Origin: a virus
Reading direction: 5' to 3' (one strand)
Virus record (IMG/VR): IMGVR_UViG_3300048504_000674
Location: 1-22,631 of that record
Length of the DNA: 22,631 bases
The notes below the pieces were generated by a model. The model was not told the origin of the DNA. It searched no databases and saw only the letters and a list, made by a program, of their open reading frames with translations. A program made the translations under genes and the position numbers. Positions 2,501 to 22,631 of the stretch are shown piece by piece. Position 1 is the stretch's first letter. Every line of letters begins with the position of its first letter.

Positions 2501-2906
2501 CTAATTTATCCTGTTTGTCTAAATTATTCATTTCCGATTGAATTTTTTTATCAACATCACTTACATCTTTTAATTCACTTTTTACACTATTTAGCAATTC
2601 TTCTTTTTCGAACTCAGATAATCCATACCCACCACCGGCCGACTCTTCGTTTGTAGGTGAATTGTTTATTGCTCTTTGTAGAACCGCAGATAGTTTAATA
2701 AGTTGGTCGTCATTTTTAACAGATACATCTAAGTAATCTTTAATCATGGGTGCAATAACAGTGGCACTACCTGCGTCTTTTATCATAGTCCTTAGATCTT
2801 TTATAAGTTGATCTATCTGCTGTGCTTTCCGTGTAGAATTAAAATAAATATCTTTAGCAAGTGATGAAAAAGTCTTTCCTGTAAATATTTCTGCGTCATT
2901 GTCCAT
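2475..2906 (-). CDS. Conserved T4-like phage protein of unknown function
   Basis: This 143-residue, mostly helical, charged protein has no membrane segment. Its N-terminal part (EIFTGKTFSSLAKDIYFNST, then KAQQIDQLIKDLR and PMIKDYLDVSVKNDDQLIKL) resembles a small protein I recall next to baseplate and gp55 genes in marine T4-like phages; its function is not known to me. A Gly-rich linker (about residues 92-95, GGGY) separates two helical halves. The gene overlaps the start of the hub gene by 26 bases, implying coupled translation. No Shine-Dalgarno is visible; the leader is a run of TATATTTAT-type repeats reaching the ATG. A tail or assembly role is only suggested by position. Confidence 0.7.
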   Translation of the reverse strand: MDNDAEIFTGKTFSSLAKDIYFNSTRKAQQIDQLIKDLRTMIKDAGSATVIAPMIKDYLDVSVKNDDQLIKLSAVLQRAINNSPTNEESAGGGYGLSEFEKEELLNSVKSELKDVSDVDKKIQSEMNNLDKQDKLDGLHKNSS

Positions 2907-2945
2907 AAATATAAATATAAATATACATATTTTTTGAACTATATC

Positions 2946-3662
2946 TTATGCATTATCTATCTTTATATATCCAGTTTGATTGTATTCAATCTGTATCTTC
3001 TTTTGTAAATCTTTCATTTTGTTAACAACTTTTGTTATATTTTGAGTCTTACAATTTGTCATTTCTCTTATATACAGATATAATGCTTTTTTATTGAAAT
3101 TTTCAATTCTATCTGAGTTTCTAAATATTTCCAAAACTGCATATGCTATTTGTAACTCACTTTGTTTTTTGAATATTCTTTCAATATTTACATCCCAAAA
3201 TTCAATCATTAACCGGAAGAATTCACTTAACTCTTTTTTTGTTTGAGAACTCTGTGTAGTAGAACTAAGTGCCATATCTACATTTGGTGCTTCTTCGTCA
3301 TCAACACTTACGTGCTTTTTAAACTTTCTATAATTGCCATTATTGTACAGGATTAAGAAATTTTTTGCGATTATGCTAAAATATGAAAATGCTTTTCCGT
3401 TGTCAGGTTTATATTTGTGTATATTGCTAACTAAATTACTAACCACTTCTTGTTGAACCTCAATATGACTACATTGAAAATATGAAAACTTAAAAGTGTT
3501 TAATATATTTTCTGCTAGTTTATCGAATGCAGCTGAGATTCTTTCGTTGTATATTTTATTCCTTAAAACTTCATCTTCAGAACTGTTATATTCTATAATT
3601 GCATTTTCTGCTTCTTTACCAAAGTATATTTTAGATTTTTTTCTTCGTTTTTTTACTGCCAC
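2946..3662 (-). CDS. 55: Late-transcription RNA polymerase sigma factor, gp55-like
   Basis: The 238-residue protein resembles the T4 gp55 family, the small sigma factor that directs host RNA polymerase to phage late promoters. The basic N-terminus (AVKKRRKKSKIYFGKEAEN) followed by AIIEYN matches the start of marine-phage gp55. Residues 83-104 (KYKPDNGKAFSYFSIIAKNF, then LI) are the region-2-like core that contacts the polymerase and the -10 element. It is longer than T4 gp55 (185 aa), as in other marine phages. The start is GTG, supported by AAAGGA about 6 bases upstream; the next in-frame candidates would cut the basic N-terminus. It lies 12 bases after the small membrane protein gene, so they are probably cotranscribed. 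Confidence 0.8.
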   Translation of the reverse strand: MAVKKRRKKSKIYFGKEAENAIIEYNSSEDEVLRNKIYNERISAAFDKLAENILNTFKFSYFQCSHIEVQQEVVSNLVSNIHKYKPDNGKAFSYFSIIAKNFLILYNNGNYRKFKKHVSVDDEEAPNVDMALSSTTQSSQTKKELSEFFRLMIEFWDVNIERIFKKQSELQIAYAVLEIFRNSDRIENFNKKALYLYIREMTNCKTQNITKVVNKMKDLQKKIQIEYNQTGYIKIDNA

Positions 3663-3674
3663 CGTTTGTCCTTT

Positions 3675-3944
3675 TTATGTGTTATTTGTCATTGTATCAA
3701 AATCCTTTATTAATTCGGAGATATTTTCATACACAAATCCAACATCATCGTCTTTTTCAAAAAGTTTACGTTCATCCACCTCATTTATATCTGATTTTAA
3801 TTTTTTAATACGCACATCTATATTATCAACCCACGACTCGTAAATCTTTACTTTTTTATATAAGTTATAACAGATATATACAAGTAATAATATAACTAAT
3901 ATAATCGTGAGTTGTAGATAATGTTCAGTAAAATATTGATACAT
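3675..3944 (-). CDS. Small membrane-anchored phage protein upstream of gp55
   Basis: An 89-residue protein with one N-terminal hydrophobic segment (about residues 10-29, LQLTIILVILLLVYICYNLY), followed by a charged, helical cytoplasmic tail. The tail contains RKLFEKDDDVGFVY (about residues 59-72), a pattern I recall in small proteins beside gp55 in marine T4-like phages. The function is unknown to me. The Shine-Dalgarno of gp55 lies at the end of this gene, so the two are likely coupled. No Shine-Dalgarno precedes its own ATG. It could be a membrane tether for a transcription or assembly factor, but nothing in the sequence shows that. Confidence 0.65.
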   Translation of the reverse strand: MYQYFTEHYLQLTIILVILLLVYICYNLYKKVKIYESWVDNIDVRIKKLKSDINEVDERKLFEKDDDVGFVYENISELIKDFDTMTNNT

Positions 3945-4006
3945 AATGATTTAATAATTACATAAATAATTTTATTTGTCAATTTTTAAATATATATCGG
4001 ATTTTT

Positions 4007-4564
4007 TTAATTTTTTGAGTTATCAGATTTTTTTTCTTCTGCTTTATCGTCAGTTGGTACATTTCCTATTGTGCTTCCTGGTATATAACCATCCATTGCT
4101 TTGTATCTTTTTTTAGCAAACATATTTTCATCTGTTTCTTTCGTTTTATTGTATAAATCCATTGATGTTTTTTTCCACGGAACATAATAAGGACCTTTAT
4201 TCTCGTCTTCACCGGGTTCTGAATTATCATACATAGCAGTCGTGATTACATTGTCATTATCCGAATTTATTTTTTTCGGTGTCGGAATTTGTTGTGGAGT
4301 TGGAGTGGGAGTTGGTGATGGAGTTGGAGTTTGTGGTTCGGGAGTTGGTGATGGAGTTGGTGTTGGAGTGGGAGTTGGTGACGGTGTTGGAGTTTGTGGT
4401 TCGGGAGTTGGTGACGGTGTTGGAGTTGGAGTGGGAGTTGGTGACGGTGTTGGAGTTGGAGTGGGAGTTGGTGACGGTGTTGGAGTTTGTGGTTCGGGAG
4501 TTGGGGTGGGTGTTTCTAATAAAGCAACATCTTCGTCCTCTTCAAAGTCACCCTCGTTTTGCAA
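4007..4564 (-). CDS. Pro-Thr-rich protein, probably the -1 frame extension of the upstream membrane protein
   Basis: The frame gives an acidic start ([13 protein letters not shown]), about 70 residues of [13 protein letters not shown] repeats, and a charged C-terminal domain (about residues 97-185) containing [15 protein letters not shown] and [15 protein letters not shown]. The only start near the beginning is TTG, without a Shine-Dalgarno. The same frame is open further upstream through [11 protein letters not shown] to the A10 run at 4596-4605, where it lies in -1 relative to the preceding gene. I therefore think it is mainly made as a C-terminal extension by frameshifting, or that the A10 length is mis-sequenced or variable. 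Pro-Thr repeats typically form stiff extended linkers. The shadow Val-Gly frames on the other strand are artefacts of this repeat. Confidence 0.6.
4294..4513 (-). repeat. Tandem repeat encoding the Pro-Thr region
   Basis: About 220 bases are made of short near-identical units. On the plus strand they read GTTGGTGACGGTGTTGGAGT and GTTTGTGGTTCGGGAGTTGG, in several copies each, with T/C variation between GATGG and GACGG. On the coding strand they specify TPTPSPTP and PEPQTP. Such a repeat is prone to length change by recombination or slippage, and to assembly collapse. Confidence 0.9.
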
Positions 4565-4587: not shown

Positions 4588-5682
4588 CTATCCAATTTTT
4601 TTTTTCGGTAACTCTTCTCCAAGAGTCATTTTTCCACCCACCATAATATTGTAAGCAAGCACAAGTGCGACTGCAACGGGATCAAAAACTAAAACAATAA
4701 TAATAATAAACCACTTGACAACCTGATCGACTGGCATATTGAACGACTCTGCAATAAAACGAAAACTTCCTATATCAGTTGCACGAATTCCTTCTTTTTC
4801 TTTTAGTATTTCTGCTTGGTTTGATTTTATCTTGGTGTATTTGTCTTCAATAACAGATACATTATCTAAATCGTTTGTTGTATCACGAAGTCCGTTTACT
4901 TTTTCCACAAATTTATCGTATTCCGTTGAAATCTCTTCATCTATTTTTGCAAGTGTATCATTGTATCGTTTTGTTGCGGATGTTTCTTCTTCTGAAATAG
5001 ATGACATAGAAGATGCAATTGAATCTCGTTCTGGTTGTTGAGCAACTCTTAGTTCTTCAAGTTTCTTTTTATTGCTTGAAAATAACCCACCACCCTTAGA
5101 CTCTATTGCAGTTTTTGTAGAGTCTAATACAGAAAGACGATCAAGTAATTGTTGTCTGCGAGTGGTTCTTGCTTCAGTATCACTTTTATTGCGTAAAGAT
5201 AATGCATCTTGTCTTGCTCTTCGATCTGCGACATAATCGTCATAAATTTTTTGAAATCCTGCAATTGTTTCTGTCTTTTTATCTTCTACGGTTACATCTG
5301 TGTTTTTTAGTGTTTCAATTTCAGTTTCTATTACAACTATTTCTTTGTTTAGTGTTTCGATGTTACTTTCGTGCATTTCTACCCGAGAACGTGTATCGTC
5401 ATAAGCATCACTTAAAAATCCATAAATACCAAGTGAAGTTATTCCTATCAAAACAACAACAGATACAGTACAATACCACTTCAACATTCGTGGAATTCTT
5501 TCCCAATACCGATATAAAAATGAAGTCATAGCAAGTTTACCTGCTTCTAAAACTCCAGCCATTACCATAGCTGCGATAGCCGCACCTGCGAATAATAAAC
5601 CAATACCACGGACAGAAAAGAAAGCAGCTGTACCAGCCACCGCAAGGGCAAGAAAACCTATAATTGCTGTAAATGTTTTCAT
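4588..5682 (-). CDS. Polytopic membrane / coiled-coil phage protein
   Basis: The 364-residue zero-frame product starts with two hydrophobic segments (about 4-23 and 27-50, the second ending [19 protein letters not shown]), then a third (about 70-90). A long coiled-coil-like region (about 95-310) rich in Glu, Lys, Arg and Thr follows, and a last hydrophobic segment lies at 321-350, containing [13 protein letters not shown]. The pattern 'EAGKL..SFLYR.W' plus a terminal 'FDP.AV.L.LA.N' is familiar from larger conserved proteins of T4-like cyanophages; the function is unknown to me. It begins with ATG after GAGGAG about 12 bases upstream. The zero frame ends two codons after an A10 run (PKKKIG, stop), and a -1 slip would give a 558-residue protein with a Pro-Thr-rich tail. 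Confidence 0.75.
4596..4605 (-). other. Candidate -1 frameshift (slippery) site, A10 on the minus strand
   Basis: On the minus strand the codons read CCG AAA AAA AAA ATT GGA TAG, so the zero frame stops two codons past the run. The -1 frame reads on as AAT TGG ATA GAT AAC into the Pro-Thr-rich frame, open to 4007. A GGAG at 4617-4620 lies 11 bases before the run, the spacing at which an internal Shine-Dalgarno stimulates -1 slippage in bacterial dnaX. A homopolymer error, length variation between phages, or transcriptional slippage would look the same. Confidence 0.55.
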
Positions 5683-5711
5683 AATAATATATATCTCCTC
5701 ATTAAACTTTA

Positions 5712-5724
5712 TACGATCATCGTA
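5712..5724. repeat. Short palindrome TACGATCATCGTA upstream of the membrane-protein gene
   Basis: Two perfect 6-base arms (TACGAT and ATCGTA) flank a single central base. It sits between the hsp20 terminator and the start codon at 5682, next to a TATATTTATAG motif (5729-5739, minus reading). The size and place suit an operator or a small hairpin in the leader, but with only 6-bp arms it may be chance. Confidence 0.35.
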
Positions 5725-5728
5725 CTTT

Positions 5729-5739
5729 CTATAAATATA
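5729..5739 (-). promoter_or_regulatory. TATATTTATAG element before the membrane-protein gene
   Basis: An exact TATATTTATAG on the minus strand, 46 bases before the ATG at 5682 and just after the hsp20 terminator. This is where a new promoter is needed, since the strong hairpin should end the previous transcript. Promoter function is inferred from position and recurrence. Confidence 0.45.
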
Positions 5740-5750
5740 ATATAATTATA

Positions 5751-5784
5751 AAAAAAGGAGGTAAACTTAATTACCTCCTTTTTT
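5751..5784 (-). terminator. Rho-independent terminator after hsp20 (possibly bidirectional)
   Basis: A perfect 14-bp inverted repeat (AAAAAAGGAGGTAA at 5751-5764, TTACCTCCTTTTTT at 5771-5784) encloses a 6-base loop. It lies between the hsp20 stop (5807) and the start of the next minus-strand gene (5682). The stem has a central GGAGG/CCTCC and ends in A/T runs on both sides, so it would work on either strand. It separates hsp20 from the membrane-protein/gp55/baseplate genes, which then need their own promoter. Confidence 0.85.
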
Positions 5785-5806
5785 GTTGTTAAATTTATAG
5801 ACACTA

Positions 5807-6304
5807 TTACATTATCTTTACTTTTTTTGACTTAGTTTCCGTGACTTCTTTTTTCGGTATGGTTACATTTAATATTCCATTGTCAAACTTGGCTGTAATT
5901 TTGCCGACCTGAAGGACTGATTCGTCTACTTTAAATGACCGTTTGAAAGAAGATCGTTTAAGTTCACGATACACATACTTTACATCAGGATCTTCAATTT
6001 CAGTCTTTTTGTCTCCTGCGATAGTGAGCATACCATCTTCATATTCAACTGACACATCATCCTTTCCTAGTCCGGCTATTTCTGCTTCAATTCTTACTTC
6101 GGTTTTGGTATCTGCTACATTTACCCGTGGATATGAACTATTTCCAAAGAAATTTACACCAAACTCTTGGCCGAAATTTGGAAATGCCTGGTTAACCATT
6201 TTGTCAAATATGGAGTCAAATGGAGTTAAAAACTCGTCTCGCATAGTTGGAACGTGTTTATTTAGTCCTGTTCCGTAGGACTTATTTAATCCGTAGTTTT
6301 TCAT
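5807..6304 (-). CDS. hsp20: Small heat shock protein (Hsp20 / alpha-crystallin family)
   Basis: The 165-residue protein has the usual layout: a variable N-terminus (1-57) with a helical part (FDSIFDKMVNQAFPNF), an alpha-crystallin domain (about 58-152) and a short Lys-rich tail. Recognisable elements are PRVNVADTKTEVRIEAEIAG (59-78), DDVSVEYEDGMLTIAGDKK (82-100), the SFKRSFKVDESV segment, and the family signature FDNGILNVTIPK (140-151). Hsp20 proteins are ATP-independent holdases that bind unfolding proteins; T4-like cyanophages and pelagiphages often carry one, probably helping virion or host protein folding during infection. AAGGAA precedes the ATG. The gene ends before a strong hairpin terminator. 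Confidence 0.93.
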   Translation of the reverse strand: MKNYGLNKSYGTGLNKHVPTMRDEFLTPFDSIFDKMVNQAFPNFGQEFGVNFFGNSSYPRVNVADTKTEVRIEAEIAGLGKDDVSVEYEDGMLTIAGDKKTEIEDPDVKYVYRELKRSSFKRSFKVDESVLQVGKITAKFDNGILNVTIPKKEVTETKSKKVKIM

Positions 6305-6378
6305 TTTACTTTTCCTTTTTTAATTACAAATCCCAGATTGGGCATTCGTTAAACAACCTCATACGAGCATTGTTCTGT

Positions 6379-6389
6379 ATATAAATATA
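6379..6389 (-). promoter_or_regulatory. TATATTTATAT element before hsp20
   Basis: The minus strand reads TATATTTATAT, one base from the recurring motif, about 75 bases before the hsp20 ATG (6304) and just after the HD-domain gene stop. It could give hsp20 its own transcript, which the hairpin at 5751-5784 would then end. Confidence 0.4.
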
Positions 6390-6402
6390 AAGTTAATTGA
6401 AA

Positions 6403-7080
6403 TTATGGTTCAAATTTCATTATATCGTCCATGTTTGATTTCTCTGCTAGACAAGTCATGTGGTCTGCCCAGTGAATTACACGTGGTAGTTCGGTTTTTA
6501 ACCCAACTTCTTTTGAAAAGGCCTTTAAATATTGTGGATTAGATTCATCGTACATTCCGTCAGATAACTTGATTCCTAGGAATTCTTTCTCGGTAATCTT
6601 GATATCAAAGTGTTGTAGTAACCAAATTGTTCTGTCTGTAACTGACATCCAGTGAATATCTGGATTAATGTTATACAACTTTCCTTGGTTTTTACGATGC
6701 CACTCACTTTCGTTGTGTACATATTGCTCACCATCCAATGATCCTAGTTTCCCTAAGTCATGGTTAAGTGCAGCGAATAACATTTCATCGTCTGTAAAAT
6801 CTATATTTGCTCCTATGCTTTGCAATAAAACTTTCACACCTCTAACTGTTTTACATACACCAAGGACATGGTCTATATATCCACCGTCATATGCGTTATG
6901 AAATCTATCAATGCTACTTGCAGGAGAAGTTAGTGCTCGTAACCCAAGGCATCCGTCATCTGTGCCGTACATATAAAGCATTTTATCCTTACGATCACCT
7001 GTAAAGGTATCATCTATAAATTTCAAAAAATTCTTATAGTTATCTTCCAATTGACTTTCTGTATAATTTTTCATAAACAT
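6403..7080 (-). CDS. HD-domain metal-dependent phosphohydrolase-like protein
   Basis: The 225-residue protein shows HD-superfamily metal-binding residues in order: H71 (GGYIDHVLGV), H107-D108 with K111 (ALNHDLGKLG), H157 (WLLQHFDI) and D206 (HWADHMTC). HD enzymes hydrolyse phosphate esters of nucleotides or cyclic nucleotides; the substrate here cannot be read from sequence. Marine T4-like phages often carry HD proteins that may act on nucleotide pools or alarmones. Start choice is uncertain: ATG at 7080 or the second ATG at 7074 (MKNYTESQ); neither has a clear Shine-Dalgarno. It is separated from hsp20 by about 100 bases. Confidence 0.8.
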   Translation of the reverse strand: MFMKNYTESQLEDNYKNFLKFIDDTFTGDRKDKMLYMYGTDDGCLGLRALTSPASSIDRFHNAYDGGYIDHVLGVCKTVRGVKVLLQSIGANIDFTDDEMLFAALNHDLGKLGSLDGEQYVHNESEWHRKNQGKLYNINPDIHWMSVTDRTIWLLQHFDIKITEKEFLGIKLSDGMYDESNPQYLKAFSKEVGLKTELPRVIHWADHMTCLAEKSNMDDIMKFEP

Positions 7081-7118: not shown

Positions 7119-7787
7119 TTAAATTTCTTCAAAGAAAAGTTTTTTGTTATTTTGGTAGTATTGTTTTGATGCTTTCGTGTGATATAAATGAAACGCATTA
7201 TTTTGTGTATACTTAATTTTATTATCTTTTTTATTTATTTTGTTAAATAAATTTAAGTCTTGAAATCCCCACCCTTGGAATTGTTCGTTATACCCACCAA
7301 CTTCAAGAAACTTGCCTCTTTCTATAATATAGGAATATTTTCCATAATGATTGTTAATCACTAAATTTTCACTATCAATTTTAACTTTAGCAGTATTTCG
7401 TGTAAATTGCGTATTACTTTTGTTTAATTTTACAACTTGGTTAAACGGCCTTACAAAATCAAACTGACTGGGTAAATTGTTAATTACATATTCATAGTTC
7501 ATGTATACATCTGCATCTATCATCCAAACATAGTCATAATTTACACTATTGAAAAAAATATTTAATAATTTAGACTTATTGAATGTGTTGGTTTTTAAAT
7601 TGTATCGTTTGTAGTTTACTCTGCCGAACAATCTTATAATATCTGTGACATTGGTATTTGCCGAGTGTTGTTCAATTACATTTATATTTTCAATCGTCGA
7701 CAAACTAAGTCTAGATAAAACAAATTTAAAGTTTAAAAACCTATCTAATGTCAAGTTATATATTGGAATAACTACTCCAATGTTCAC
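7119..7787 (-). CDS. GT-A fold glycosyltransferase coupled to a fibre gene
   Basis: The 222-residue protein starts with the nucleotide-binding strand of GT-A enzymes (NIGVVIPIYN). It has a DAD metal/sugar-nucleotide motif at 91-93 (VWMIDADVYM) and the acceptor/catalytic region GGYNEQFQGWGFQD at 164-177, as in the C-terminal domain of galactosyltransferase-like families. These enzymes transfer a sugar from a nucleotide sugar to an acceptor. The start is GTG, and its GTGA overlaps the stop of the 718-residue fibre-like gene by 4 bases, so both are made together. Glycosylation of that virion protein is an attractive inference; the acceptor is not shown by the sequence. Confidence 0.85.
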   Translation of the reverse strand: MNIGVVIPIYNLTLDRFLNFKFVLSRLSLSTIENINVIEQHSANTNVTDIIRLFGRVNYKRYNLKTNTFNKSKLLNIFFNSVNYDYVWMIDADVYMNYEYVINNLPSQFDFVRPFNQVVKLNKSNTQFTRNTAKVKIDSENLVINNHYGKYSYIIERGKFLEVGGYNEQFQGWGFQDLNLFNKINKKDNKIKYTQNNAFHLYHTKASKQYYQNNKKLFFEEI

Positions 7788-9940
7788 CTAATTTCTCTTT
7801 TTTGAAACTTTGTTGGTCCTTGGATATGCTCCAACTCTTCAAGTGTGTAATGACCACCTCGGATACTTCCGTCATAGATGAAACTAAAACAGGTTTCAGG
7901 AGCAGACGAAGACGTGCTACCCGAATTAACGGTTAACCTTACAAGTTTTCCATTCAGTGTTTCTTGTGCTCCGATTTCCATTAATATGTATCTCGGATCA
8001 TAAAATTGAGATTCGTTTTCAGTCTTTTTGTGGTTTGCTAAATTTGTAATCTCCCTTGCTTCATTTGCATAGATGGTCATAAATGCAGGTTCAGTACCTG
8101 CATCCGTTGGTGGATAACAGAATAATGTTTTCTCTCTGCAATTCTTCCAGGAGATTGCAAGTGTTCCACGACTTGAAGTTTGAGATGGTGAATTTACATC
8201 TTTGGTATACAGTTTTGCACCGTCTTTGTTGTTGAGCAATAATGAATCTCCATTTGTGAGTATATCACTGATTTCAACTTCCCTTGACAACTCCCCTAAC
8301 GAATCAGGTCTCAGTTGATCAAGTGAATCAATGCAACACGACCCAGAGAAGCAAAATGCTAAGTTGTCTTTTAAGACACTCTTGGAATATATATATGCCC
8401 AGTGTGTTTCAGGAAGTTCCTTTCCGGTTCTATCAGTTGCGGTGATTCTTAAATTATTTTCCACAACAGTCTGACCCGATGACGTGATTGGTATTACTTC
8501 AAGCATCTCACGATCAGGTAGTTGTAGTTTAAATGTTCCTGTTATCGGTGAAAACTCAACATTTTCTTGATATCGTCCGTCTGGAAGTTCTGTAACCGAA
8601 TCAATTTTAAAACCAATGTTATATGGCATAGGTATTTTCTTTGTCTCAGGTGGGTTTGATGTACCAGAGTGCGTAAGAACAGTTTCATGAAGTTTAACTG
8701 CGAAAACAGTGCCTTCCTCTGAGTCAAGTGGTTGAATAACGGTACTTCCCTTAACGTATACATCGTTATCATTTTCTGTGTTATTTTCACAACTACCTTC
8801 AAGTGACAATGTTGGTACAATTTTACTTTTACTAACTTGACTTGCATTTGTGACTAAAACTTCAGGTGAACTTAATTTATCTGTAAATGTTATATTTGAT
8901 GTAGACTGAGTTATCACCTTGAGTTTGACATCAATTTCACCTATACCCGTTACATAAGATTCGGTCTCGGGTGTAAAATCTATTTCCTTATATGATACAA
9001 ACACATCATCATCTTTAATGTTTGCCTCGGATGCGTTATACAATACACCTATATTGCTATGATATACATATATTTCATCATTTATAAGTGGCATATCCTG
9101 ATCAGTTGGTTGTGGTCCTTCTAATTTATTATATTCTATTTGTAAAAGCAGATTGTTGCGACTAGTTACAGTGCCTGTGTTTTCAACTCGTATCTTCCAA
9201 CCTGTATATAAGAAGTTTCCATCTGCATCATTGTAAATATTTGGTTTTATTGTTAGTTTATATTCTTCTGATAATGGTCTACCACCGGTTGGTGATCCAG
9301 TTAGTGGTCGGTAGTTTGTTACAATCGCAGTATGTTTACCGGTTGCAACAAACAGGGGTTTGCTTATTACAGGTTCAAGTCGTGCATGGACAGCATTTGA
9401 CCCCATTATGCTACCAAGTTGGGTGCTTGCGTTAATTCTAGCAAGAGTATCTGAGAGATAGTACACTACACCAGGTTCTAAATCAGTTGTTTCTTCTCCA
9501 AATGTTATTTTACCGAAAAACACAACTTTAGCACGAAAACCCTCTTCAGGAAGTTCACGACCCGTTTCACAACTTACTTCAACTTTTTCAACAATAGCAA
9601 GTGATTCTATTAAGTGTTCTGGATCTTTTGTGTAATTTCCGTTGTCAATTTCAGCTGAAGCTAAATCATAACCATCTTTGTAGGAATTCCAAAATACTGC
9701 GTCACCTACCCGTGGACAATCATACTTTAGGTATACTATATCTGCTATTTGAGTGGTGTGGTTTTGGGGATCATTTTCATAGATCTTTCGCAACTCATGA
9801 CGAATAATGTCCGTGGATATTACGGTAATGTCATCTCCGTCTGTTGAGGTGACCTGTGTCCATCCGGACGCATTGCAACCACCTCCACCCGAACCACCAG
9901 ACGAACTACATTTTGACATATTGAAAGCTGAATTTGACAT
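7784..9940 (-). CDS. Tail-fibre-like virion structural protein
   Basis: The 718-residue protein opens with a Ser/Gly/Cys-rich segment (CSSSGGSGGGGC, 11-22). Residues 78-213 form a module also present in the 638-residue neighbour: VGDAVFWN, then IVEKVE, VVFFGKITF, LEPGVVYYLSDT, EPVISKPLFVATG and AIVTNYRPL. I recall this module in fibre and baseplate-attached proteins of marine myophages. The rest is beta-rich with Ser/Thr/Asn, ending in a region that could be a distal domain. No membrane segments or catalytic motif are visible. AAAGGAAA precedes the ATG. It lies 17 bases after the 123-residue gene and overlaps the glycosyltransferase gene by 4 bases, giving a structural operon with a modifying enzyme. 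Confidence 0.75.
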   Translation of the reverse strand: MSNSAFNMSKCSSSGGSGGGGCNASGWTQVTSTDGDDITVISTDIIRHELRKIYENDPQNHTTQIADIVYLKYDCPRVGDAVFWNSYKDGYDLASAEIDNGNYTKDPEHLIESLAIVEKVEVSCETGRELPEEGFRAKVVFFGKITFGEETTDLEPGVVYYLSDTLARINASTQLGSIMGSNAVHARLEPVISKPLFVATGKHTAIVTNYRPLTGSPTGGRPLSEEYKLTIKPNIYNDADGNFLYTGWKIRVENTGTVTSRNNLLLQIEYNKLEGPQPTDQDMPLINDEIYVYHSNIGVLYNASEANIKDDDVFVSYKEIDFTPETESYVTGIGEIDVKLKVITQSTSNITFTDKLSSPEVLVTNASQVSKSKIVPTLSLEGSCENNTENDNDVYVKGSTVIQPLDSEEGTVFAVKLHETVLTHSGTSNPPETKKIPMPYNIGFKIDSVTELPDGRYQENVEFSPITGTFKLQLPDREMLEVIPITSSGQTVVENNLRITATDRTGKELPETHWAYIYSKSVLKDNLAFCFSGSCCIDSLDQLRPDSLGELSREVEISDILTNGDSLLLNNKDGAKLYTKDVNSPSQTSSRGTLAISWKNCREKTLFCYPPTDAGTEPAFMTIYANEAREITNLANHKKTENESQFYDPRYILMEIGAQETLNGKLVRLTVNSGSTSSSAPETCFSFIYDGSIRGGHYTLEELEHIQGPTKFQKREIR

Positions 9941-14140: not shown

Positions 14141-15385
14141 GTGAAAAAGAAAATATTACTTCTGTCTGATGATATAAGACTACAAACTGGTGTAGCGAAT
14201 ATATCTAAGAGCATAGTCCTTAATTCATGTGACACATATGATTGGGTTCAAATGTCAATGGGATCACTTAATACCAATCAAGAAATTATTGATGTTTCCG
14301 ATTCAGTAAGTAAGATCACCAATACATCCGATACTTACGTAAGATTGTACGAAACTAAGGGATATGGAAGTCGTGATTCGTTGTTGAATATTATCAAAAA
14401 AGAAGAACCTTCTGCAATTATGCATATCACAGACCCCCATAGATTCTCCTGGTTATACTCTATGAGTGATGAGGTACGAGAGTTAATGCCCTTGATGTAC
14501 TATCATGTATGGGATAATGATCCACACCCAAAATTTTTAAGGAATGTATATAATAAATGTGACTGGATTGGGTGTATTAGTAAACTTACATATGATTCGG
14601 TCAAGGAAGTCACACCAGAACACCCAAATTACGAGTATATCCCACATGGAGTATCAGACAAAGTATTTTTTCCACAAGACGAAAGCACCAGAGAAAAGCA
14701 TCGTATCGGTCTGCTGGGTAAGAATTATAAATTTGTTCTTCTTTTTAATAATGCCAATATAAGTAGAAAGCAACTATTACTTACCATTCAGTCATTTTCC
14801 AAATTCTATCAAAAATTAAATGAAGAGCAAAAAAAAGAAGTTGTATTACTACTACACACCGATGTAAACCATCGTGGTGGTTGTAATGTAAATACACTGC
14901 TTGATGAAATATATTCTGATCTTCCTGTGTTAATATCACCAAGTTTGGTAAGTGAGTCACACTTAAATAATATTTACAATCTATCACATTGTACTATTAA
15001 TGTTGCTTACAATGAGGGATTTGGATTATCAACACTTGAGTCGGTTTTTACAAACACACCTATTATATTAAATAAAACTGGTGGGTTATCTGATCAAATT
15101 AATAACGAATGGACTGAAGTAGTGAACCCCACATCCAGAATGTTAGTAGGAACACAGCAAGTCCCGTATCTCTATACAGATATATGTAGTGCAGACGATG
15201 TCGCCGTTGCAATTGATAATATGTATAAACGACATACAGATATTGATATGACTGATAAGTTTGATTTTATATTAGAAAATAGGTTCACAGACAAACTTAT
15301 GGTTGAATCAATTGTCAACGGAGTTGATAAAACTATTAAAAAATTTAAACCTGTCCACAATATTAGGTTTACCAAAATTAACTGA
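14141..15385 (+). CDS. GT4-like (GT-B fold) glycosyltransferase
   Basis: The 414-residue protein begins MKKKILLLSDDIRLQTGVAN, as in marine-phage glycosyltransferases. It carries the GT4 donor-site region: NISRKQLLLTIQSF (206-219) and the E-x7-E motif within NEGFGLSTLE (E292 and E300), followed by PIILNKTGGLSDQI. GT4 retaining enzymes use nucleotide-activated sugars. The start is GTG; the protein begins exactly at the first beta strand, so the start is plausible although no Shine-Dalgarno is present. It is first in a run of glycan genes, with the next start two bases after its stop. The acceptor is unknown; virion or envelope glycan is likely from context. Confidence 0.85.
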   Translation: MKKKILLLSDDIRLQTGVANISKSIVLNSCDTYDWVQMSMGSLNTNQEIIDVSDSVSKITNTSDTYVRLYETKGYGSRDSLLNIIKKEEPSAIMHITDPHRFSWLYSMSDEVRELMPLMYYHVWDNDPHPKFLRNVYNKCDWIGCISKLTYDSVKEVTPEHPNYEYIPHGVSDKVFFPQDESTREKHRIGLLGKNYKFVLLFNNANISRKQLLLTIQSFSKFYQKLNEEQKKEVVLLLHTDVNHRGGCNVNTLLDEIYSDLPVLISPSLVSESHLNNIYNLSHCTINVAYNEGFGLSTLESVFTNTPIILNKTGGLSDQINNEWTEVVNPTSRMLVGTQQVPYLYTDICSADDVAVAIDNMYKRHTDIDMTDKFDFILENRFTDKLMVESIVNGVDKTIKKFKPVHNIRFTKIN

Positions 15386-15387
15386 CT

Positions 15388-16560
15388 ATGAAAACAATAG
15401 TATATGAATCACCATTGATGTCTTTATCCGGATACGGTGAACATTCACGTGAGATAGCAACTTATCTAATTAATAACCACAAATCAGAACATTTGCATTT
15501 TATATCAACAAATTGGGGAAGCACACAGAATTCACTCAGAGCATTGAGTAGTAAAATTAAAAAACAATTCAGAAAACACATAGATATTAACACCAAGGTT
15601 GATTTATTTATACAAGTTGGGTTGTTGGAAGAGTTTAAATGTGTTGGTAATACAAATATTGGAATTTCGGCGTGTGTAGAATCAGCATTATGCAGTAGAG
15701 AGGCAATAGTAAAGTGCAATTTAATGGATTTAGTTATCGTTCCGTCTAGTTTTTGCAAAGAAGTAATTTTAAATAGTTCAAATGAGTACGATATAAAACT
15801 TAACACCCAAATAGAAATTATTGGTGAAGAAGTTAGTTTATCCAAACGAGATGTTAATAAAAAGGAAAAAAGTGAAATAGATAAATTCACAAAAGAGATT
15901 ACAGAAGATTTTTGCTTTTTTTCGGTCGGTGAGTGGGATTTTAAAAATGACAGAAAAAATATAGATGGGTTAATTTCTTCTTTTTGTAAAACTTTCAATA
16001 AAACTGATAATGTTGCACTTATTTTAAAAACACAAAATAAAAACTATTCTGATGTAGACTATGAGTTGGTATATAATAAACTAAAAAACAAATTGGATGA
16101 AGATAAATCTGCCTCGGTTTACTTATTGCATGGTAATTTATCCCAAGTTCAACTAGAATACTTTTATATGAACTCAAAAATAAAATGTTGTGTTTTTCCA
16201 ACAAAAGGTGAAGGTTTTGGTAGATCAATACTACAATCAGTAAAACTAGGCATTCCGACAATTTCATCAAACTGGTCGGGACACACAGACTTCTTATCAG
16301 AACAAAGATTTTTAATAGATGGTTCTCTTTCGGAAGTAAACTCAGATGATAAAGTTTTCTCAAACGATTCTACCTGGTTTAATATTTCAACAAAAAAATT
16401 ATCAGAAAAATTAAACGATATTGTTGATAACTATCCCGAATATAAAGAGGGTATATCCAAAATTTCAAAAGATTGCCTTAAAAAGTATTCACACTCTAAT
16501 ATCTCTACTAAGTATAAAGAAATTATCAGTACATATATATTATCTAACGATAGTGTATAA
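15388..16560 (+). CDS. GT4-like glycosyltransferase with altered E-x7-E motif
   Basis: The 390-residue protein resembles GT-B glycosyltransferases. The start YESPLMSLSGYGEHSREIA contains the glycine loop of the acceptor domain. FSVGEWDFKNDRKNIDGLIS (178-197) marks the beginning of the donor domain, and KGEGFGRSILQSVKLGIPTI (273-292) is the nucleotide-sugar site. In the usual E-x7-E motif the second Glu is replaced by Gln (E275, Q283), which may alter donor binding. The ATG lies two bases after the preceding stop, so it is in the same operon and probably coupled; no separate Shine-Dalgarno is evident. Confidence 0.8.
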   Translation: MKTIVYESPLMSLSGYGEHSREIATYLINNHKSEHLHFISTNWGSTQNSLRALSSKIKKQFRKHIDINTKVDLFIQVGLLEEFKCVGNTNIGISACVESALCSREAIVKCNLMDLVIVPSSFCKEVILNSSNEYDIKLNTQIEIIGEEVSLSKRDVNKKEKSEIDKFTKEITEDFCFFSVGEWDFKNDRKNIDGLISSFCKTFNKTDNVALILKTQNKNYSDVDYELVYNKLKNKLDEDKSASVYLLHGNLSQVQLEYFYMNSKIKCCVFPTKGEGFGRSILQSVKLGIPTISSNWSGHTDFLSEQRFLIDGSLSEVNSDDKVFSNDSTWFNISTKKLSEKLNDIVDNYPEYKEGISKISKDCLKKYSHSNISTKYKEIISTYILSNDSV

Positions 16561-16562
16561 AA

Positions 16563-17258
16563 GTGAGTTACTATTCAAAATATTTACAAAGATTAATAGG
16601 TGGTAATATAAGTGCTTCTAAAACAAGAATTTCACCTGGACAGATTGTATCCTTCAAATACAAGTCAGAAACAACAGGTCGTAGACTACCAAGACTTATT
16701 TTAGTACTTGGGAAATTCAACAAAGGTGGTGGTATGCTTCTACATGGTATTACACTAGAACACATACCCGAACGTGCATTATACGCATTTCTTAAAAAAG
16801 TAATAATCAAAGATACCTTATCTTTGATTAAAAGAAAGTATGAAATAAAAGGACCGTTTTCGCAATTAATAGATCGCCCTCGTACATTCTACACAAACTA
16901 TATAAAACCAAATCTTACAGAATATGATTGCTACCGAACATATCATATAACGAGAATAACTCAAGTAAAATGTTGGATGTTAGATTGGAAACGCCTTGGG
17001 GTATTTGATGTAAACACGCACACGTCTGCTATCATTGGCAAAAATGAATCATTAAATGAAATAGTGAAAGGTAGAGACTTGCTTAGTAAGATTCTTAAGG
17101 CTGATATAACCCAACTTAACAATGCCAAATTTTCTAAAATTGTAAAAGAACGATTTGGCACAATGTCTGCCTTTTATGAGATGTTAGAGGACATAGAACA
17201 ATTTTCAGACGATTTACTAAACGACTCACTGGACGACCTTGATGCAACCAAGTATTAA
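16563..17258 (+). CDS. Conserved phage protein of unknown function
   Basis: A 231-residue, basic, soluble protein. The N-terminal 70 residues (ISPGQIVSFKYKS, then LPRLILVLGKFNKGGGMLLH) look like a small beta-barrel; residues 104-145 contain RPRTFYTNYIKPNLTEYDCY and RTYHITRITQVKCWMLDW. I recall similar YxTYR-type proteins in T4-like marine phages, none with an assigned role. A helical, acidic tail ends it (EDIEQFSDDLLNDSLDDLD). The start is GTG two bases after the preceding stop; the 3' end overlaps the next gene by 17 bases. A 12-bp inverted repeat lies inside the gene at 16804-16830. Its place among glycosyltransferases may be incidental. Confidence 0.65.
   Translation: MSYYSKYLQRLIGGNISASKTRISPGQIVSFKYKSETTGRRLPRLILVLGKFNKGGGMLLHGITLEHIPERALYAFLKKVIIKDTLSLIKRKYEIKGPFSQLIDRPRTFYTNYIKPNLTEYDCYRTYHITRITQVKCWMLDWKRLGVFDVNTHTSAIIGKNESLNEIVKGRDLLSKILKADITQLNNAKFSKIVKERFGTMSAFYEMLEDIEQFSDDLLNDSLDDLDATKY
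16804..16830. repeat. Perfect 12-bp inverted repeat inside a coding region
   Basis: TAATCAAAGATA (16804-16815) and TATCTTTGATTA (16819-16830) are exact inverted copies separated by CCT. On the minus strand the hairpin is followed by TTACTTTTTT, resembling a weak terminator for antisense transcription. On the plus strand no U-tract follows. It encodes IIKDTLSLI in the 231-residue protein. Confidence 0.6.
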
Positions 17259-19437
17259 AATAAGTTATGCAATCTGCACTCATAATGAAACTCAAAGTTT
17301 AAAAAAACTAATTGATTTACTGAAATCAAATATAGACGAAAACGATGAGATAGTGATTGTAGATGATATGTCAACCAATCCAGAAACAATCAAGCAACTA
17401 AAAAGAATAAATTGCGTAATTCACAAGAAATTAGGTAATGATTTCGCATCACAAAAAAACCTCTTCTTTCAAATATGCAAAGGAGATTATATTTTCAATA
17501 TTGATTCAGATGAACTCCCGAGTATTAATTTAATAAAAGATATAAAAAAAATATGCAATGATGGTTACGATTTAATATATATTCCACGGAGAAACTACAT
17601 TGATGAATTATCTAAAGATCAAATAGTTAAATGGGGATTTCGGGTTGGAACTGATGGACGTGTAAATTATCCAGATTACCAAGGTCGTGTATATAAAAAC
17701 AAAAAAGAACTAAGATGGAAGTCGTGTGTACATGAACACATAGTCAATTTTAAAAAATCAAAAAGGTTACCACAAAAAACTTCTTATTATATTGACCACA
17801 TAAAATCAAACGAAGCACAGACTAAAAGTAATTCGCTTTATTCAAAAATCAGTAGAGATAAATCAGACTTTGATTCAGAGTTTGTTATTTTAAATTGTTA
17901 CTTCAATCCATGTGACTACAAAAGTAAATTTATTAATTTTCAAAAAACAATAAAATATTTTGATCAATTTGAGTTTCCGTCTTTGACAATCGAATCATTC
18001 AAGGATAACTCAAAATATAGGATTTACACTAATACAAAAAATGTAATATCAGTAAAGTCAGAGTCTACATTTTGGCAAAAGGAAAATTTACTAAATATAG
18101 GAATAGAGTTTTTAAAGAAATTTGACTGCAAATATATACTAGTTCTTGACGGTGACATAAAGTTTTCATCGGACAACTGGATAAGAGAAATAAAACAGGC
18201 AAGTCGCATGAACGACATAACTCATATTTTCAAAACGGCTAACCGAACAGATTTTCATAATAAAAAAATAAGAAAGTTAAATACGATTTTACACAGAATA
18301 AACGAGAACCAAAGTAATGAGCAGAAATTAAATTTATTATTAGAAAGAGATGGTGAACCTGGTTATGGATATTGCTTTAAAAAAGATGTATTTGCTAATG
18401 TTAACCTATACGACAAGTGCATAATGGGTTCGGGTGATTTTTTTAACTTAATTTCAAATTACAAGTGTAGAGGATTTTCAAAAAAAATTAAAAACGATAG
18501 GTTTTTTAGAAAAACAACAACCGAATTTGTGTCGGATTACTTGGATTATGTAAATAAATTTTTCTCACCCGATGTTAAGGTTGGTTATGCAAAATGTGAA
18601 CTTGATACATTTTATCATGGTGACATAGTTAACAGAGAGTATGTGAATAGAGAATCTATACTCAGTAAATTTAACTTTAATCCAACCACAGATATTAAAA
18701 AAAACCAAATTGGTGTTTATGAAGTTACCAATAAAATTTTAGAAAAAAGAATTTATAAATACTTTCAGGATAGAGATGAGGATGCAAATCACACTAGTCT
18801 TAGTTATGGTTTGGTGACAAATATTTTGAAACCCCAAAAAAAAGTAATAAGTTGTTTTAAGTTTAAGTCATCAGATAATTTAGTAATTGCAACAACCTAT
18901 AATTCAAAAAAAGTTTCAATAAATAGAATTGAATGTTTAAATAAAATTTTTATTGATAGCTCAAGCACCCCAAGTATATTATCATATACATCGGGTTTTG
19001 ATAAAGTGCCGAGTAATTTTTACAATTTTTTTTGTTTTATACACACCTTCTACCATGTACTACCTGACTATTGTTATTTTGTTTCACCAACTTCGTTGCG
19101 ATATAATTATGTGAGTGATATAAATAGAGATATAGAATCAAATAATGAAATGTCGTCAAATCTTACATTTTTACACGGAAGTAAATGTAAAATAAAAACA
19201 AAATACACGGATTATATAAGAAATGAAGTCAAGTTTTCTTCTTGGTTGGAATATATAGGTGCAACTGAATATAAAATAAATAAAACATATATACAAGGAC
19301 CTACATTTAAAGTTACACGCAACGGAATACACAATAGACCTAAAGAATTTTATGTAGAATTATGTGAGTTACTTAAAAAATACCCAACCACATATAATTT
19401 TTTAATCGAGAGAACCCTCGGGAACATATTCCAGTGA
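17242..19437 (+). CDS. Multi-module GT-A glycosyltransferase
   Basis: The product is 731 residues from the ATG at 17242 (a TTG one codon earlier is possible). Module 1 (about 1-200) is a classic GT2: YAICTHNE, VIVDDMSTN, the DSD motif in FNIDSDELP (88-90) and WKSCVHEHI. Module 2 (about 213-480) restarts as another GT-A-like unit: FVILNCYFNP, ILVLDGDIKFSSDNW with a DGD motif, and GEPGYGYCFKKDVF. Module 3 (about 520-731) contains VIATTYNSKKVSINRIECLN and FFCFIHTFYHVLPDYCYFVS and has no motif I recognise. Two catalytic centres in one chain could add two sugars in sequence. It overlaps the preceding gene by 17 bases and the next by 4 (GTGA). Confidence 0.8.
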   Translation: MQPSIKISYAICTHNETQSLKKLIDLLKSNIDENDEIVIVDDMSTNPETIKQLKRINCVIHKKLGNDFASQKNLFFQICKGDYIFNIDSDELPSINLIKDIKKICNDGYDLIYIPRRNYIDELSKDQIVKWGFRVGTDGRVNYPDYQGRVYKNKKELRWKSCVHEHIVNFKKSKRLPQKTSYYIDHIKSNEAQTKSNSLYSKISRDKSDFDSEFVILNCYFNPCDYKSKFINFQKTIKYFDQFEFPSLTIESFKDNSKYRIYTNTKNVISVKSESTFWQKENLLNIGIEFLKKFDCKYILVLDGDIKFSSDNWIREIKQASRMNDITHIFKTANRTDFHNKKIRKLNTILHRINENQSNEQKLNLLLERDGEPGYGYCFKKDVFANVNLYDKCIMGSGDFFNLISNYKCRGFSKKIKNDRFFRKTTTEFVSDYLDYVNKFFSPDVKVGYAKCELDTFYHGDIVNREYVNRESILSKFNFNPTTDIKKNQIGVYEVTNKILEKRIYKYFQDRDEDANHTSLSYGLVTNILKPQKKVISCFKFKSSDNLVIATTYNSKKVSINRIECLNKIFIDSSSTPSILSYTSGFDKVPSNFYNFFCFIHTFYHVLPDYCYFVSPTSLRYNYVSDINRDIESNNEMSSNLTFLHGSKCKIKTKYTDYIRNEVKFSSWLEYIGATEYKINKTYIQGPTFKVTRNGIHNRPKEFYVELCELLKKYPTTYNFLIERTLGNIFQ

Positions 19438-20288
19438 ACATCATTTCAATTCACATTTTTCCACATGAACTTCATAACTATAAACGCATAGTTGATAGAT
19501 TAAATGTTTCTATGTTCAATTTAAATATCAAAGATATAGAAGTGTGGGTTACACTAAACTTAAATAAGACAATACTTGATTTCAAAAAAATATCAGATAT
19601 AGACTTGATTATAGAACAATTTAAAAACACCACAAAAGAACTTGTTGTTAAATACAAATTAAGAATAAATTTACAAGATGATTTTCTTGGAGTAAATGAA
19701 CACAGAATTGAAACAATAAATAATTCAGATATAAATGATTATATAATGTTCTTGGATTCGGATTTATTTTTTAATCACAATTTACTAAAAAAACACACTG
19801 AATATGCTCATTTATTAAAAAAAGAAAATAAACTATTCATAATAACACCTCAATGTATACGATTATGGGATTCAACTTGGGATTGTGTTGTTAATATGAA
19901 TTTTCTTAAAAAACCTCTTGGTTATTACAAAAAAGTAGACCCAAGTGAAATTACAAAAAAAACTTACGGAAATTTCTCATTAAATAAATTATCAAAATTT
20001 AAATGGGCAAACGGTTGGTTCACAGGAATGTCAGCCGAACTTGCTAAGTTAGTTAATATACCAAAAAGTTTTAAGGGATATGGACCCGATGACACCTACA
20101 TGATGGAATGTTGTAAGTTTCTTAAACAACAAAACTATGATATAAATCAATATACAATAAGAGGTTTAATAGTGTGTGAAGATGTATCAATTAGAGACAA
20201 TTTTTTTAAAAAAGACATTCCCAATTTTAGGCAGAACTGCAATAGATTATTTAATCAAGAGTTAGAAACATTCAGAAAACGTATATAA
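19434..20288 (+). CDS. GT-A fold glycosyltransferase
   Basis: The 284-residue protein has a DSD sugar-nucleotide motif (108-110, IMFLDSDLFF) and an acceptor/catalytic region KWANGWFTGMSAEL and FKGYGPDDTYMM (190-224), where DD precedes a conserved Tyr-Met. This is the arrangement of GT2-like enzymes related to the galactosyltransferase C-terminal family. Start is GTG within GTGA, overlapping the stop of the large multi-module gene, so the two are translated together and probably act on the same glycan. The donor and acceptor sugars are unknown. Confidence 0.8.
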   Translation: MNIISIHIFPHELHNYKRIVDRLNVSMFNLNIKDIEVWVTLNLNKTILDFKKISDIDLIIEQFKNTTKELVVKYKLRINLQDDFLGVNEHRIETINNSDINDYIMFLDSDLFFNHNLLKKHTEYAHLLKKENKLFIITPQCIRLWDSTWDCVVNMNFLKKPLGYYKKVDPSEITKKTYGNFSLNKLSKFKWANGWFTGMSAELAKLVNIPKSFKGYGPDDTYMMECCKFLKQQNYDINQYTIRGLIVCEDVSIRDNFFKKDIPNFRQNCNRLFNQELETFRKRI

Positions 20289-20304: not shown

Positions 20305-21114
20305 ATGAACACATCAAATTTATACAAATCACTTTTGATCACCACCCTCTCCTTTTCAATGTCTGGATGTATTACACTTCCAACTTGGGGACTAAAACAA
20401 GATCGACAAGAAATCGCAGGAGAAATAACAAGAAAAGAAAGTGAACTTGAAAGACACACTCGTTCTTATGTCACTGGTACAGTTGAAGCATTGTCCTTAT
20501 CCGAGAATAAATCAACAGAAGACTTGGTAGCACTTCAGTTGGCAAAAGAAGCACAAACGATTGTAGGACTTCCACAACCAGGTGATAAAATTCATGTTGA
20601 GGATCTTATTACACAAAACGAAATTGCAATAGAAAATCTATCAGACAGAGAACAGGATGTAATTGAACTTAGTAGACGCAAACAGATTCTAGGACACGAC
20701 CTCAAAGATACAGAAGAAAAACTTATTAGCTTGGGAGAACTTAAAGCAAAAGAGCAAAAAGATGGATTTTTTAATTCGGTGTGGGTATGGTTAACAGGAA
20801 CATTCGGATTAATAGGAGCAGTCGCAGTTTTAATAGTTGCAGGACCCGCACTTCTTCCGGTAATTACACAACTTATAGGTTGGTTAGTAGCAAGAATACC
20901 AGGACTCATTGCTTGGTTTGGAATTACAAGTAGTCAAATGACAAGCAACATAATAAAAGGAGTGTATGATGCAAAACAGAAAATCCGTTCTCTTGATGAT
21001 GATAAAAAATTAAGCAAAAATGAAGTATTAAATATATTCGGGTCGTCTTTGGGAAATTCCACAAATGTAACAGACAAAAATGCGATTGATCGCATAAAGA
21101 GAAAGTTTAAGTGA
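20305..21114 (+). CDS. Phage lipoprotein with an internal hydrophobic segment
   Basis: The 269-residue protein has a signal peptide with a lipobox (SMSGC; Cys at 22), preceded by one Lys and a hydrophobic run, so the mature form would be lipid-anchored with Ile after Cys. The mature part has a coiled-coil-like region (about 32-150), then a long hydrophobic stretch (about 158-207, VWVWLTGTFGLIGAVAVLIV, ALLPVITQLIGWLVA, GLIAWFGI), and a charged tail ending IDRIKRKFK. A lipid anchor plus transmembrane region could join two membranes or plug a receptor or channel; superinfection exclusion, lysis (spanin-like) or glycan export are possible. No Shine-Dalgarno precedes the ATG. GTGA couples it to the next gene. 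Confidence 0.75.
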   Translation: MNTSNLYKSLLITTLSFSMSGCITLPTWGLKQDRQEIAGEITRKESELERHTRSYVTGTVEALSLSENKSTEDLVALQLAKEAQTIVGLPQPGDKIHVEDLITQNEIAIENLSDREQDVIELSRRKQILGHDLKDTEEKLISLGELKAKEQKDGFFNSVWVWLTGTFGLIGAVAVLIVAGPALLPVITQLIGWLVARIPGLIAWFGITSSQMTSNIIKGVYDAKQKIRSLDDDKKLSKNEVLNIFGSSLGNSTNVTDKNAIDRIKRKFK

Positions 21115-21764: not shown

Positions 21765-22631
21765 ATGAAAAAAGGAATAAAGCGTAAGATGAAAATTGGA
21801 GTTGTTGGAAATGGATTTGTGGGTCATGCGATGACCTTGCTTAGACCATATGTTGATGTATTAGTATGGGATGTAGTAGAAGAAAAACGTGAACCAAAAT
21901 CTTTGGATATTGAAACATTTGTAGAGGAGTCCGAAATTATTTTTGTTGCAGTTCCCACACCAATGAATAAAGACGGAAGTGCTAATCTTGATATTGTCCG
22001 TGCAGTATGTGAAGAAATTCAAGAAATAGACGATAGTAAATATATTATACTTCGCTCTACAGTACCACCTGGAACAAGTGAAGAATTTGATGTAAATTTT
22101 ATGCCAGAGTTCCTAACTGAGAAAAATTGGGCAGAAGATTTTAAAAATTGCAATCAGTGGATACTTGGTTCTACTGATCCTTTTTTATATGAAAAAATGA
22201 AACGTATGTTTGAACTTGCTTACAACGATGGAAATGGATCTGTTGTAAACAAAGAAGTAATTCAATGCAAACCAAGTGAAGCAGAAATGATCAAATATTT
22301 AAAAAATGTTTTTCTAAGCGTAAAAGTAGGATTTTTTAATGAACTTGAAAACATTTGCTCGAAACTTGGTTTTGACTACGAGAATGTAAGATGTATTGCA
22401 ACAGAGGACAAACGAATTGGTACTGGACACACAAAAGTTCCAGGACATGACGGAAAACGAGGTTTCGGTGGAACTTGTTTCCCAAAAGACACAAATGCAC
22501 TTGCTAACTTTGCAAAAGAAAACGATGTGGATACACCCATATTAGATGCAGTCATAAAAAGAAATGAAGAAATAGATCGTCCAGAGCAAGACTGGAAAAC
22601 AGACACAGGTCGTGCAGTAGCAGGAGAATAA
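21765..22631 (+). CDS. Short UDP-glucose/UDP-ManNAc dehydrogenase-like enzyme
   Basis: The 288-residue protein has the NAD-binding motif GNGFVG (15-20), VAVPTPMNKDG (61-71), STVPPGT (98-104), MPEFLTE (113-119), KYLKNVFLSVKVGFFNE with the catalytic Lys180-Asn181, and the active-site Cys238 in GFGGTCFPKD. These mark the nucleotide-sugar 6-dehydrogenase family, which oxidises UDP-sugars to uronates. Family members usually have about 390-450 residues; the C-terminal nucleotide-sugar-binding domain is missing and the chain ends cleanly at TAA at the window edge. Either start (ATG 21765 or 21789, MKIGVVGN) is possible; the second trims a basic N-terminal tag. It would supply uronic acid donors to the adjacent glycosyltransferases. 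Confidence 0.88.
   Translation: MKKGIKRKMKIGVVGNGFVGHAMTLLRPYVDVLVWDVVEEKREPKSLDIETFVEESEIIFVAVPTPMNKDGSANLDIVRAVCEEIQEIDDSKYIILRSTVPPGTSEEFDVNFMPEFLTEKNWAEDFKNCNQWILGSTDPFLYEKMKRMFELAYNDGNGSVVNKEVIQCKPSEAEMIKYLKNVFLSVKVGFFNELENICSKLGFDYENVRCIATEDKRIGTGHTKVPGHDGKRGFGGTCFPKDTNALANFAKENDVDTPILDAVIKRNEEIDRPEQDWKTDTGRAVAGE

Follow-up and report, generated by a model that had tools for sequence, protein, structure and literature searches.

The glycosyltransferase GT, encoded directly behind the fibre-like protein FIB in a 22.6-kb virus record (the whole stretch analysed here, referred to as the window), is best read, by a modest lean, as a dedicated virion-protein glycosyltransferase belonging to the fibre module of a T4-like phage. 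GT would be made together with the P638-P123-FIB module, presumably by joint transcription, and would add sugar to at least one protein of this module, with FIB, a putative part of the virion, as the first candidate. The GT1-GT4 enzymes encoded on the other strand would then extend or complete the glycan, whose benefit could lie in receptor binding or in shielding. The features concerned are listed in Table 1; both genes and their GTGA overlap have the coordinates, strand, lengths and GTG start that a previous, sequence-only reading of the window had described.

Table 1. Positions of the features discussed, as numbered in the window
Feature	Position	Strand	Description
P185	4007..4564	minus	Thr/Pro-rich (mucin-like) protein; alternative acceptor candidate
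GT	7119..7787	minus	222-aa GT-A glycosyltransferase (GT2/GT7C type), GTG start
GTGA stop/start overlap	7784..7787	minus	Read on the coding strand; 4 nt shared by the GTG start codon of GT and the TGA stop of FIB
FIB	7784..9940	minus	718-aa fibre-like protein, mostly beta; low-confidence Ser/Gly-rich N-terminus, conserved Cys
P123	9958..10329	minus	123-aa gene between P638 and FIB; kept in the module
P638	10329..12245	minus	638-aa structural-like protein; shares a domain with FIB
GT1-GT4 glycan cluster (with P231)	14141..20288	plus	Probable partners of GT
GT4	19434..20288	plus	Below-cut-off PF00535 match only
UGD	21765..22631	plus	UDP-glucose dehydrogenase-like; PHROG 9148, 1.6e-41

By its domains and motifs, GT is a GT2/GT7C-type GT-A glycosyltransferase with an intact motif set. 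It matches two Pfam families over their cut-offs, PF10111 (4.7e-08, 33.3 bits, cut-off 27.3) and PF02709 (1.5e-07, 31.4 bits, cut-off 23), the latter being found in 22/22 aligned family members at E <= 0.01. Residues D91, D93, G172-W173-G174, Q176-D177-L178, H200 and H203 are invariant in these 22 homologues, which were drawn from the 25 distinct pairs after removal of near-duplicates. We take D91/D93 to be the DxD metal motif and GWGxxD to be a conserved glycosyltransferase motif; the earlier identification of the enzyme from its DAD motif and GWGFQD is thereby borne out. Used as a single query, GT gave no confirmed match in viral contigs, and none of the 15 stretches of bacterial genomes that fitted the pattern of the GT alignment was confirmed. 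The AlphaFold2 model of GT (mean pLDDT 93.5) has chondroitin polymerase K4CP as its top structural match (Z 18.0, rmsd 2.7, 202 residues aligned), followed by a crowd of matches at Z 15-17 that includes chondroitin synthases, cellulose synthases and GalNAc-T2 (Z 16.2 over 203 residues). Sequence identity to the matching structures listed is 11-18%, and the best PDB match by sequence profile is beta-4-galactosyltransferase 7 (2.6e-05). Such a crowded field means that the fold names neither donor nor acceptor, and families beyond the matches listed are not counted as excluded. GT resembles the beta-1,4-galactosyltransferase, chondroitin polymerase and polypeptide GalNAc-transferase GT-A families in PF02709, DxD, GWGxxD and close fold, but differs from them by a glutamine where their GWGxED motif has a glutamate. 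That the top match, K4CP, is a polysaccharide polymerase counts against a virion-protein substrate; close folds also include the peptide-modifying GalNAc-Ts, at Z about 16.

DNA glucosylation is a known trait of T4-like phages (PMC2884959), and this lends some appeal to the idea that GT glycosylates phage DNA. The idea is nonetheless highly improbable: GT is of GT2/GT7C type, and a PF00303 gene (thymidylate synthase/dCMP hydroxymethylase) is absent from 6/6 long, possibly incomplete relatives, which weighs mildly against it.

Homologues of GT begin at the same alignment column as GT itself, which supports its GTG start. The overlap with FIB had been proposed to fix the ratio of enzyme to fibre, a claim left unsupported by comparison with relatives, where the junction ranges from -47 to +14 nt, and with the window itself, where 4-nt overlaps occur elsewhere. 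Among 22 same-strand junctions in the window, counted from the coordinates of 24 genes hand-chosen by the analyst, six overlap, three of them by exactly 4 nt (GT/FIB, GT3/GT4 and P269/P203), and the 4-nt GT/FIB overlap is thus ordinary for the window. The GTGA overlap as proof of stoichiometric coupling was accordingly rejected, 4-nt overlaps being too common; in one related locus (L179), GT has a 4-nt overlap with an upstream 75-aa non-fibre gene. A GAG, read by eye 7 nt ahead of the GTG of GT, makes independent translation initiation possible. The P269/P203 overlap lies within window positions 20305-21722, where the gene for a 269-aa protein, lipoprotein-like by eye, runs into that for a 203-aa protein weakly resembling tail spikes (PHROG 2234, 0.0067).

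Conservation of the gene pair, the check that the sequence-only reading had named, gave a clear answer: conservation of the FIB-GT pair is strong. The two genes are direct neighbours in 35/35 contigs holding both (window included, contigs counted by name from HD- and P638-derived loci), representing 25 distinct GT sequences, and this adjacency persists down to about 30% identity. One further contig outside the 35 (L118/L145) carries a truncated FIB beside GT, and each of the six contigs of 115-170 kb has a single copy of FIB and of GT, side by side. Both genes are present in 31/32 loci found via P638, the exception (L088) having a P638 match that spans 60 residues only. Relatives of the HD gene define 51 loci: the 24 with HD identity of at least about 60% all have a GT-profile match, with FIB directly before GT in 23 and a Thr/Pro-rich protein in this place in the remaining one (L017/L147), and at HD identity of 51% or less a GT-profile match is found in 0/27 loci, within the fetched stretches. 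The FIB-GT gap is -4 to +14 nt in 29/35 contigs, including exactly -4 in four, and -11 to -47 in the other six, where the larger overlaps (-11, -38, -47) may reflect start choice, since contig genes are longest-ORF calls.

The whole FIB-GT neighbourhood is syntenic within the clade, so that adjacency alone is weak evidence there. Genome compaction could in principle account for the arrangement; GT would then initiate translation by itself and do an unrelated job, and common descent would explain the synteny. Six of the 22 same-strand junctions in the window overlap, and distances of GT, FIB, PhoH and SIG all correlate within the clade, as shared descent predicts. Fibre- or stalk-like neighbours of GT recur, however, in other lineages with different partners (see below), which makes this explanation very unlikely. 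Directly downstream of GT, the HD, HSP20 and P364 genes (window 4588-7080) show distances discordant with those of the neighbourhood: correlation with GT distances is r 0.21-0.42 for these three genes, 0.52 for P269 and 0.83-0.97 for most other genes. This island looks as if it were recombining between lineages. The idea that FIB-GT itself is a swapped hypervariable cassette was dropped, the distances of both genes following the backbone and only those of HD/HSP20/P364 being discordant.

FIB has no family over cut-off in Pfam or PHROG, and 0/20 members of its family match PHROG at E <= 0.01 (20 of the 25 distinct pairs were aligned, near-duplicates being omitted; FIB of L022 is truncated). Neither FIB nor P638 matched named phages, FIB as a single query gave no confirmed match in viral contigs, and a fold search gave no credible match (TM about 0.1), its query being a low-confidence model (mean pLDDT 68.8, largely beta, with low confidence over 62 residues at the N-terminus). 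"Fibre-like" is hence a fair label as far as position and shared domains go, but one that neither a family, a named relative nor a credible fold backs. The shared domains are of two kinds. Positions about 82-242 of the FIB family profile are common to P638, and in 6/6 long contigs the second FIB-profile match falls within P638, two genes upstream; positions about 540-700, corresponding to the C-terminal domain, recur in a phage protein of giant size (2.6-3.2 kaa) that coexists with FIB in two contigs. Together with a block that leads to baseplate-wedge genes, as seen in L006, a contig sharing P361 at 95%, these domains support a virion role for FIB. The T4 Gp23 capsid gene is found in 6/10 relatives searched, namely the six longest (115-170 kb), which is in line with a T4-like phage. 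Two contigs with FIB encode giant 3.1 kaa proteins that include the FIB C-terminal domain (L121:4526-13924 and L125:4496-13939); the giant gene of L121 is followed by one for DNA primase.

FIB is a plausible acceptor for GT. No part of it is mucin-like (S/T/P peaks at 0.44 per 25 aa, 78.6th percentile), and the acceptor may hence be another protein of the block rather than FIB itself. In addition, sister phages carry GT behind a different protein, so that FIB need not be the sole acceptor: in L139, L141, L143 and L147, whose downstream genes are the same, the gene immediately before GT encodes a Thr/Pro-rich protein, and FIB is absent from the fetched stretch. These observations, the lack of a mucin-like stretch in FIB and the presence of the PT-rich P185 in the window would fit a Thr/Pro-rich stalk, P185 for instance, or some other structural protein as the main acceptor, the place of GT behind FIB being then a relic of a mucin-like stalk locus. 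Yet the upstream stretch fetched was 0.5 kb in L147 and 2.6 kb in L139 and L143, leaving room for FIB further up, and P185 has PT repeats in just 5/19 relatives for which the P364-P89 interval was covered (window included, own ORF calls), as against GT in 19/19; the C-terminal part of P185 is conserved. A stalk or other structural protein in place of FIB as main acceptor is thus unlikely, though it keeps some weight. A PF13640 prolyl hydroxylase family gene, which would hint at hydroxyproline glycans, was found in 0/6 long contigs.

Related glycosyltransferases outside the clade are frequently, though not invariably, preceded by fibre- or stalk-like genes. In L174-L178, which have other neighbours, a 210-251 aa PT-stalk protein lies 8-25 nt ahead of GT. 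In L181, L182 and L184 the gene upstream of GT is large and overlaps it by 4, 4 and 1 nt, respectively; another L181 gene, further upstream (2592-4475), matches tail-fibre PHROGs, and the L182 and L184 genes at the same position begin alike. For L181 (no PHROG match) and L184 (no Pfam match), the protein encoded immediately before GT is fibre-like by context only. In L183, GT starts 3 nt after a 1188-aa protein whose PHROG match is weak (head closure, 1.3e-04). Neither L179 nor L180, which belong to the L174 cluster, has a fibre- or stalk-like gene immediately ahead of GT. A mucin-like gene directly precedes GT in 10 of 15 non-FIB loci of GT relatives, versus a null mean of 1.6. Counted by clusters, the figure is 3/6 versus a null mean of 0.53, and the resulting P = 0.009 is not a clean prior test, as mucin-like was defined with the first loci already in view; moreover, the largest cluster is represented by a positive (L174) and also holds the negatives L179 and L180. 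In a comparison set of 52 loci, which omits L119-L128 and L032 (a locus without this GT that has a PT-rich protein), 1/830 ORFs is mucin-like; several of L119-L128 have PT-rich ORFs elsewhere in related phages, and PT-rich proteins thus also exist away from this GT.

These partners raise a broader and more tentative possibility, namely that GT O-glycosylates the fibre or mucin-like stalk encoded directly upstream and is kept while its partner is swapped. This would amount to a phage form of mucin-type glycosylation of virions, in which an E-x-F-P at the C-terminus of partners from two lineages might serve for recognition; although conceivable, it is doubtful at present. The partners swapped in such a module of fibre and dedicated GT, carried by uncultured phages, would be FIB, a dockerin-like PT stalk, a small PT stalk and other fibre-like proteins, a list to be taken with equal reserve. 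Partner proteins from two lineages (L174-L178, L180, L181, L182 and L184) end in [E/Q]-x-F-P. An FP ending is present in 15/3339 ORFs, 12 of which (from eight distinct contigs) end in E-x-F-P and lie directly upstream of GT. At L032:3330-9470, in the place between PhoH and HD that FIB-GT occupies in the window clade, lie a gene for a 771-aa protein containing PT-rich stretches and, behind it, a PF11397 (GlcNAc-transferase) gene, a GT2 gene and two further genes that match no Pfam family.

GT had been noted to lie far from the glycan cluster on the opposite strand, but this distance does not show a separate function. In L164-L169, four of six GT proteins have a further, distinct segment that matches GT3 at residues about 203-531; in L139, L141 and L143, whose GTs are 452-475 aa long, there is a weak match to the C-terminal part of GT3 (36, 23 and 32 bits, respectively). 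Furthermore, GT divergence follows that of GT1 and GT2: GT distances correlate with those of GT1 at r 0.91 and with those of FIB at 0.87, and partial correlations are 0.62 for GT1 and 0.47 for GT2 given FIB and P638, versus 0.37 for FIB given GT1 and GT2, partial distance correlations being prone to inflated false-positive rates. The partial-correlation set was reduced from 24 groups to 15 by dropping near-identical (P638 distance <=0.05) or missing-gene groups. Given these fusions and this co-variation, GT probably works in one glycan pathway with the opposite-strand cluster. UGD is a possible source of UDP-glucuronate. That GT tracks GT1 slightly better than FIB counts against an enzyme of the fibre module.

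Several glycosyltransferases and a UDP-glucose dehydrogenase-like gene in one window, together with chondroitin and heparosan synthases as the closest structures to GT, would also suit an enzyme that acts on the host surface (O-antigen or capsule), changing receptors or blocking superinfection, with GT1-GT4 and UGD in a surface-glycan pathway. Seroconversion caused by phage glycosyltransferases is an established phenomenon. It is also mentioned in one of the papers on virion glycosylation cited below. Against this, GT sits behind fibre-like genes in several lineages and its closest named homologues belong to glycosyltransferase sets linked to virion glycosylation, so that action on the host surface appears distinctly unlikely.

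These homologues come from mycobacteriophages: 31/32 named-collection records matching GT are Mycobacterium phages. The primary report of phage virion glycosylation is said to be that of Freeman et al. in 2023. GT shares 21.9% identity over 219 aa with Firecracker gp35 (blastp 1.0e-12, small set) and also matches Che8 gp109 (blastp 3.8e-04, small set), with GT profile E-values of 9.8e-08 (at Z = 50000) and 7.7e-08, respectively. Firecracker gp35 resembles Che8 gp109 at 56% identity and is the counterpart of Corndog gp37 by length and gene order; the closest named homologues of GT are thus Corndogvirus genes (about 22% identity), counterparts of Corndog gp37/Che8 gp109. These are the middle genes of three-glycosyltransferase sets, Corndog gp36-gp38 (PMC4351075) and Che8 gp108-gp110. 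Proteins of Corndog, Che8 and Myrna are reported to be glycosylated, Che8 gp110 and Corndog gp38 are named as essential, and the acceptors reported are capsid and tail tube (PMC11600133, PMC12619734, PMC12363180).

The likeness of the window GT to the middle gene of the Corndog/Che8 sets extends in part to its setting. The cluster O set lies amid structural genes, as does the window GT within its structural block, but its genes stand in tandem between portal and protease, whereas a single GT follows a fibre-like gene in the window, with the other glycosyltransferases (GT1-GT4) on the opposite strand. The Che8 set is also in tandem, but the homologue there is among the last genes of the record and not beside structural genes. 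The acceptors also differ, being capsid and tail tube in mycobacteriophages and, as a candidate, the fibre module in the window; inspection by eye of the capsid and tail proteins of Firecracker showed no mucin-like stretches. Six mycobacteriophage glycosyltransferases were tested against the profiles of GT1-GT4, with no match, and neither these profiles nor that of GT, all from a 22.6-kb genome fragment, matched Firecracker gp36 or Che8 gp110. With no gp38/gp110-type match, the likeness is one of a single component and perhaps of working principle, not of the whole set.

Host-surface action, DNA modification and bare compaction are less likely than a virion-protein glycosyltransferase. Phage-encoded enzymes are reported to glycosylate virion proteins of mycobacteriophages, namely those of capsid and tail tube; titles and abstract starts, covering few subscription papers, held no fibre-linked phage glycosyltransferase or mucin-like phage proteins. 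The conserved FIB-GT pair, like the mucin-like partners of sister phages, points to particular candidate acceptors. If a fibre-linked glycosyltransferase does operate in T4-like phages, their receptor-binding parts could bear phage-made glycans, and such glycosylated fibres would bear on host range, on evasion or on the mimicry of surface sugars.
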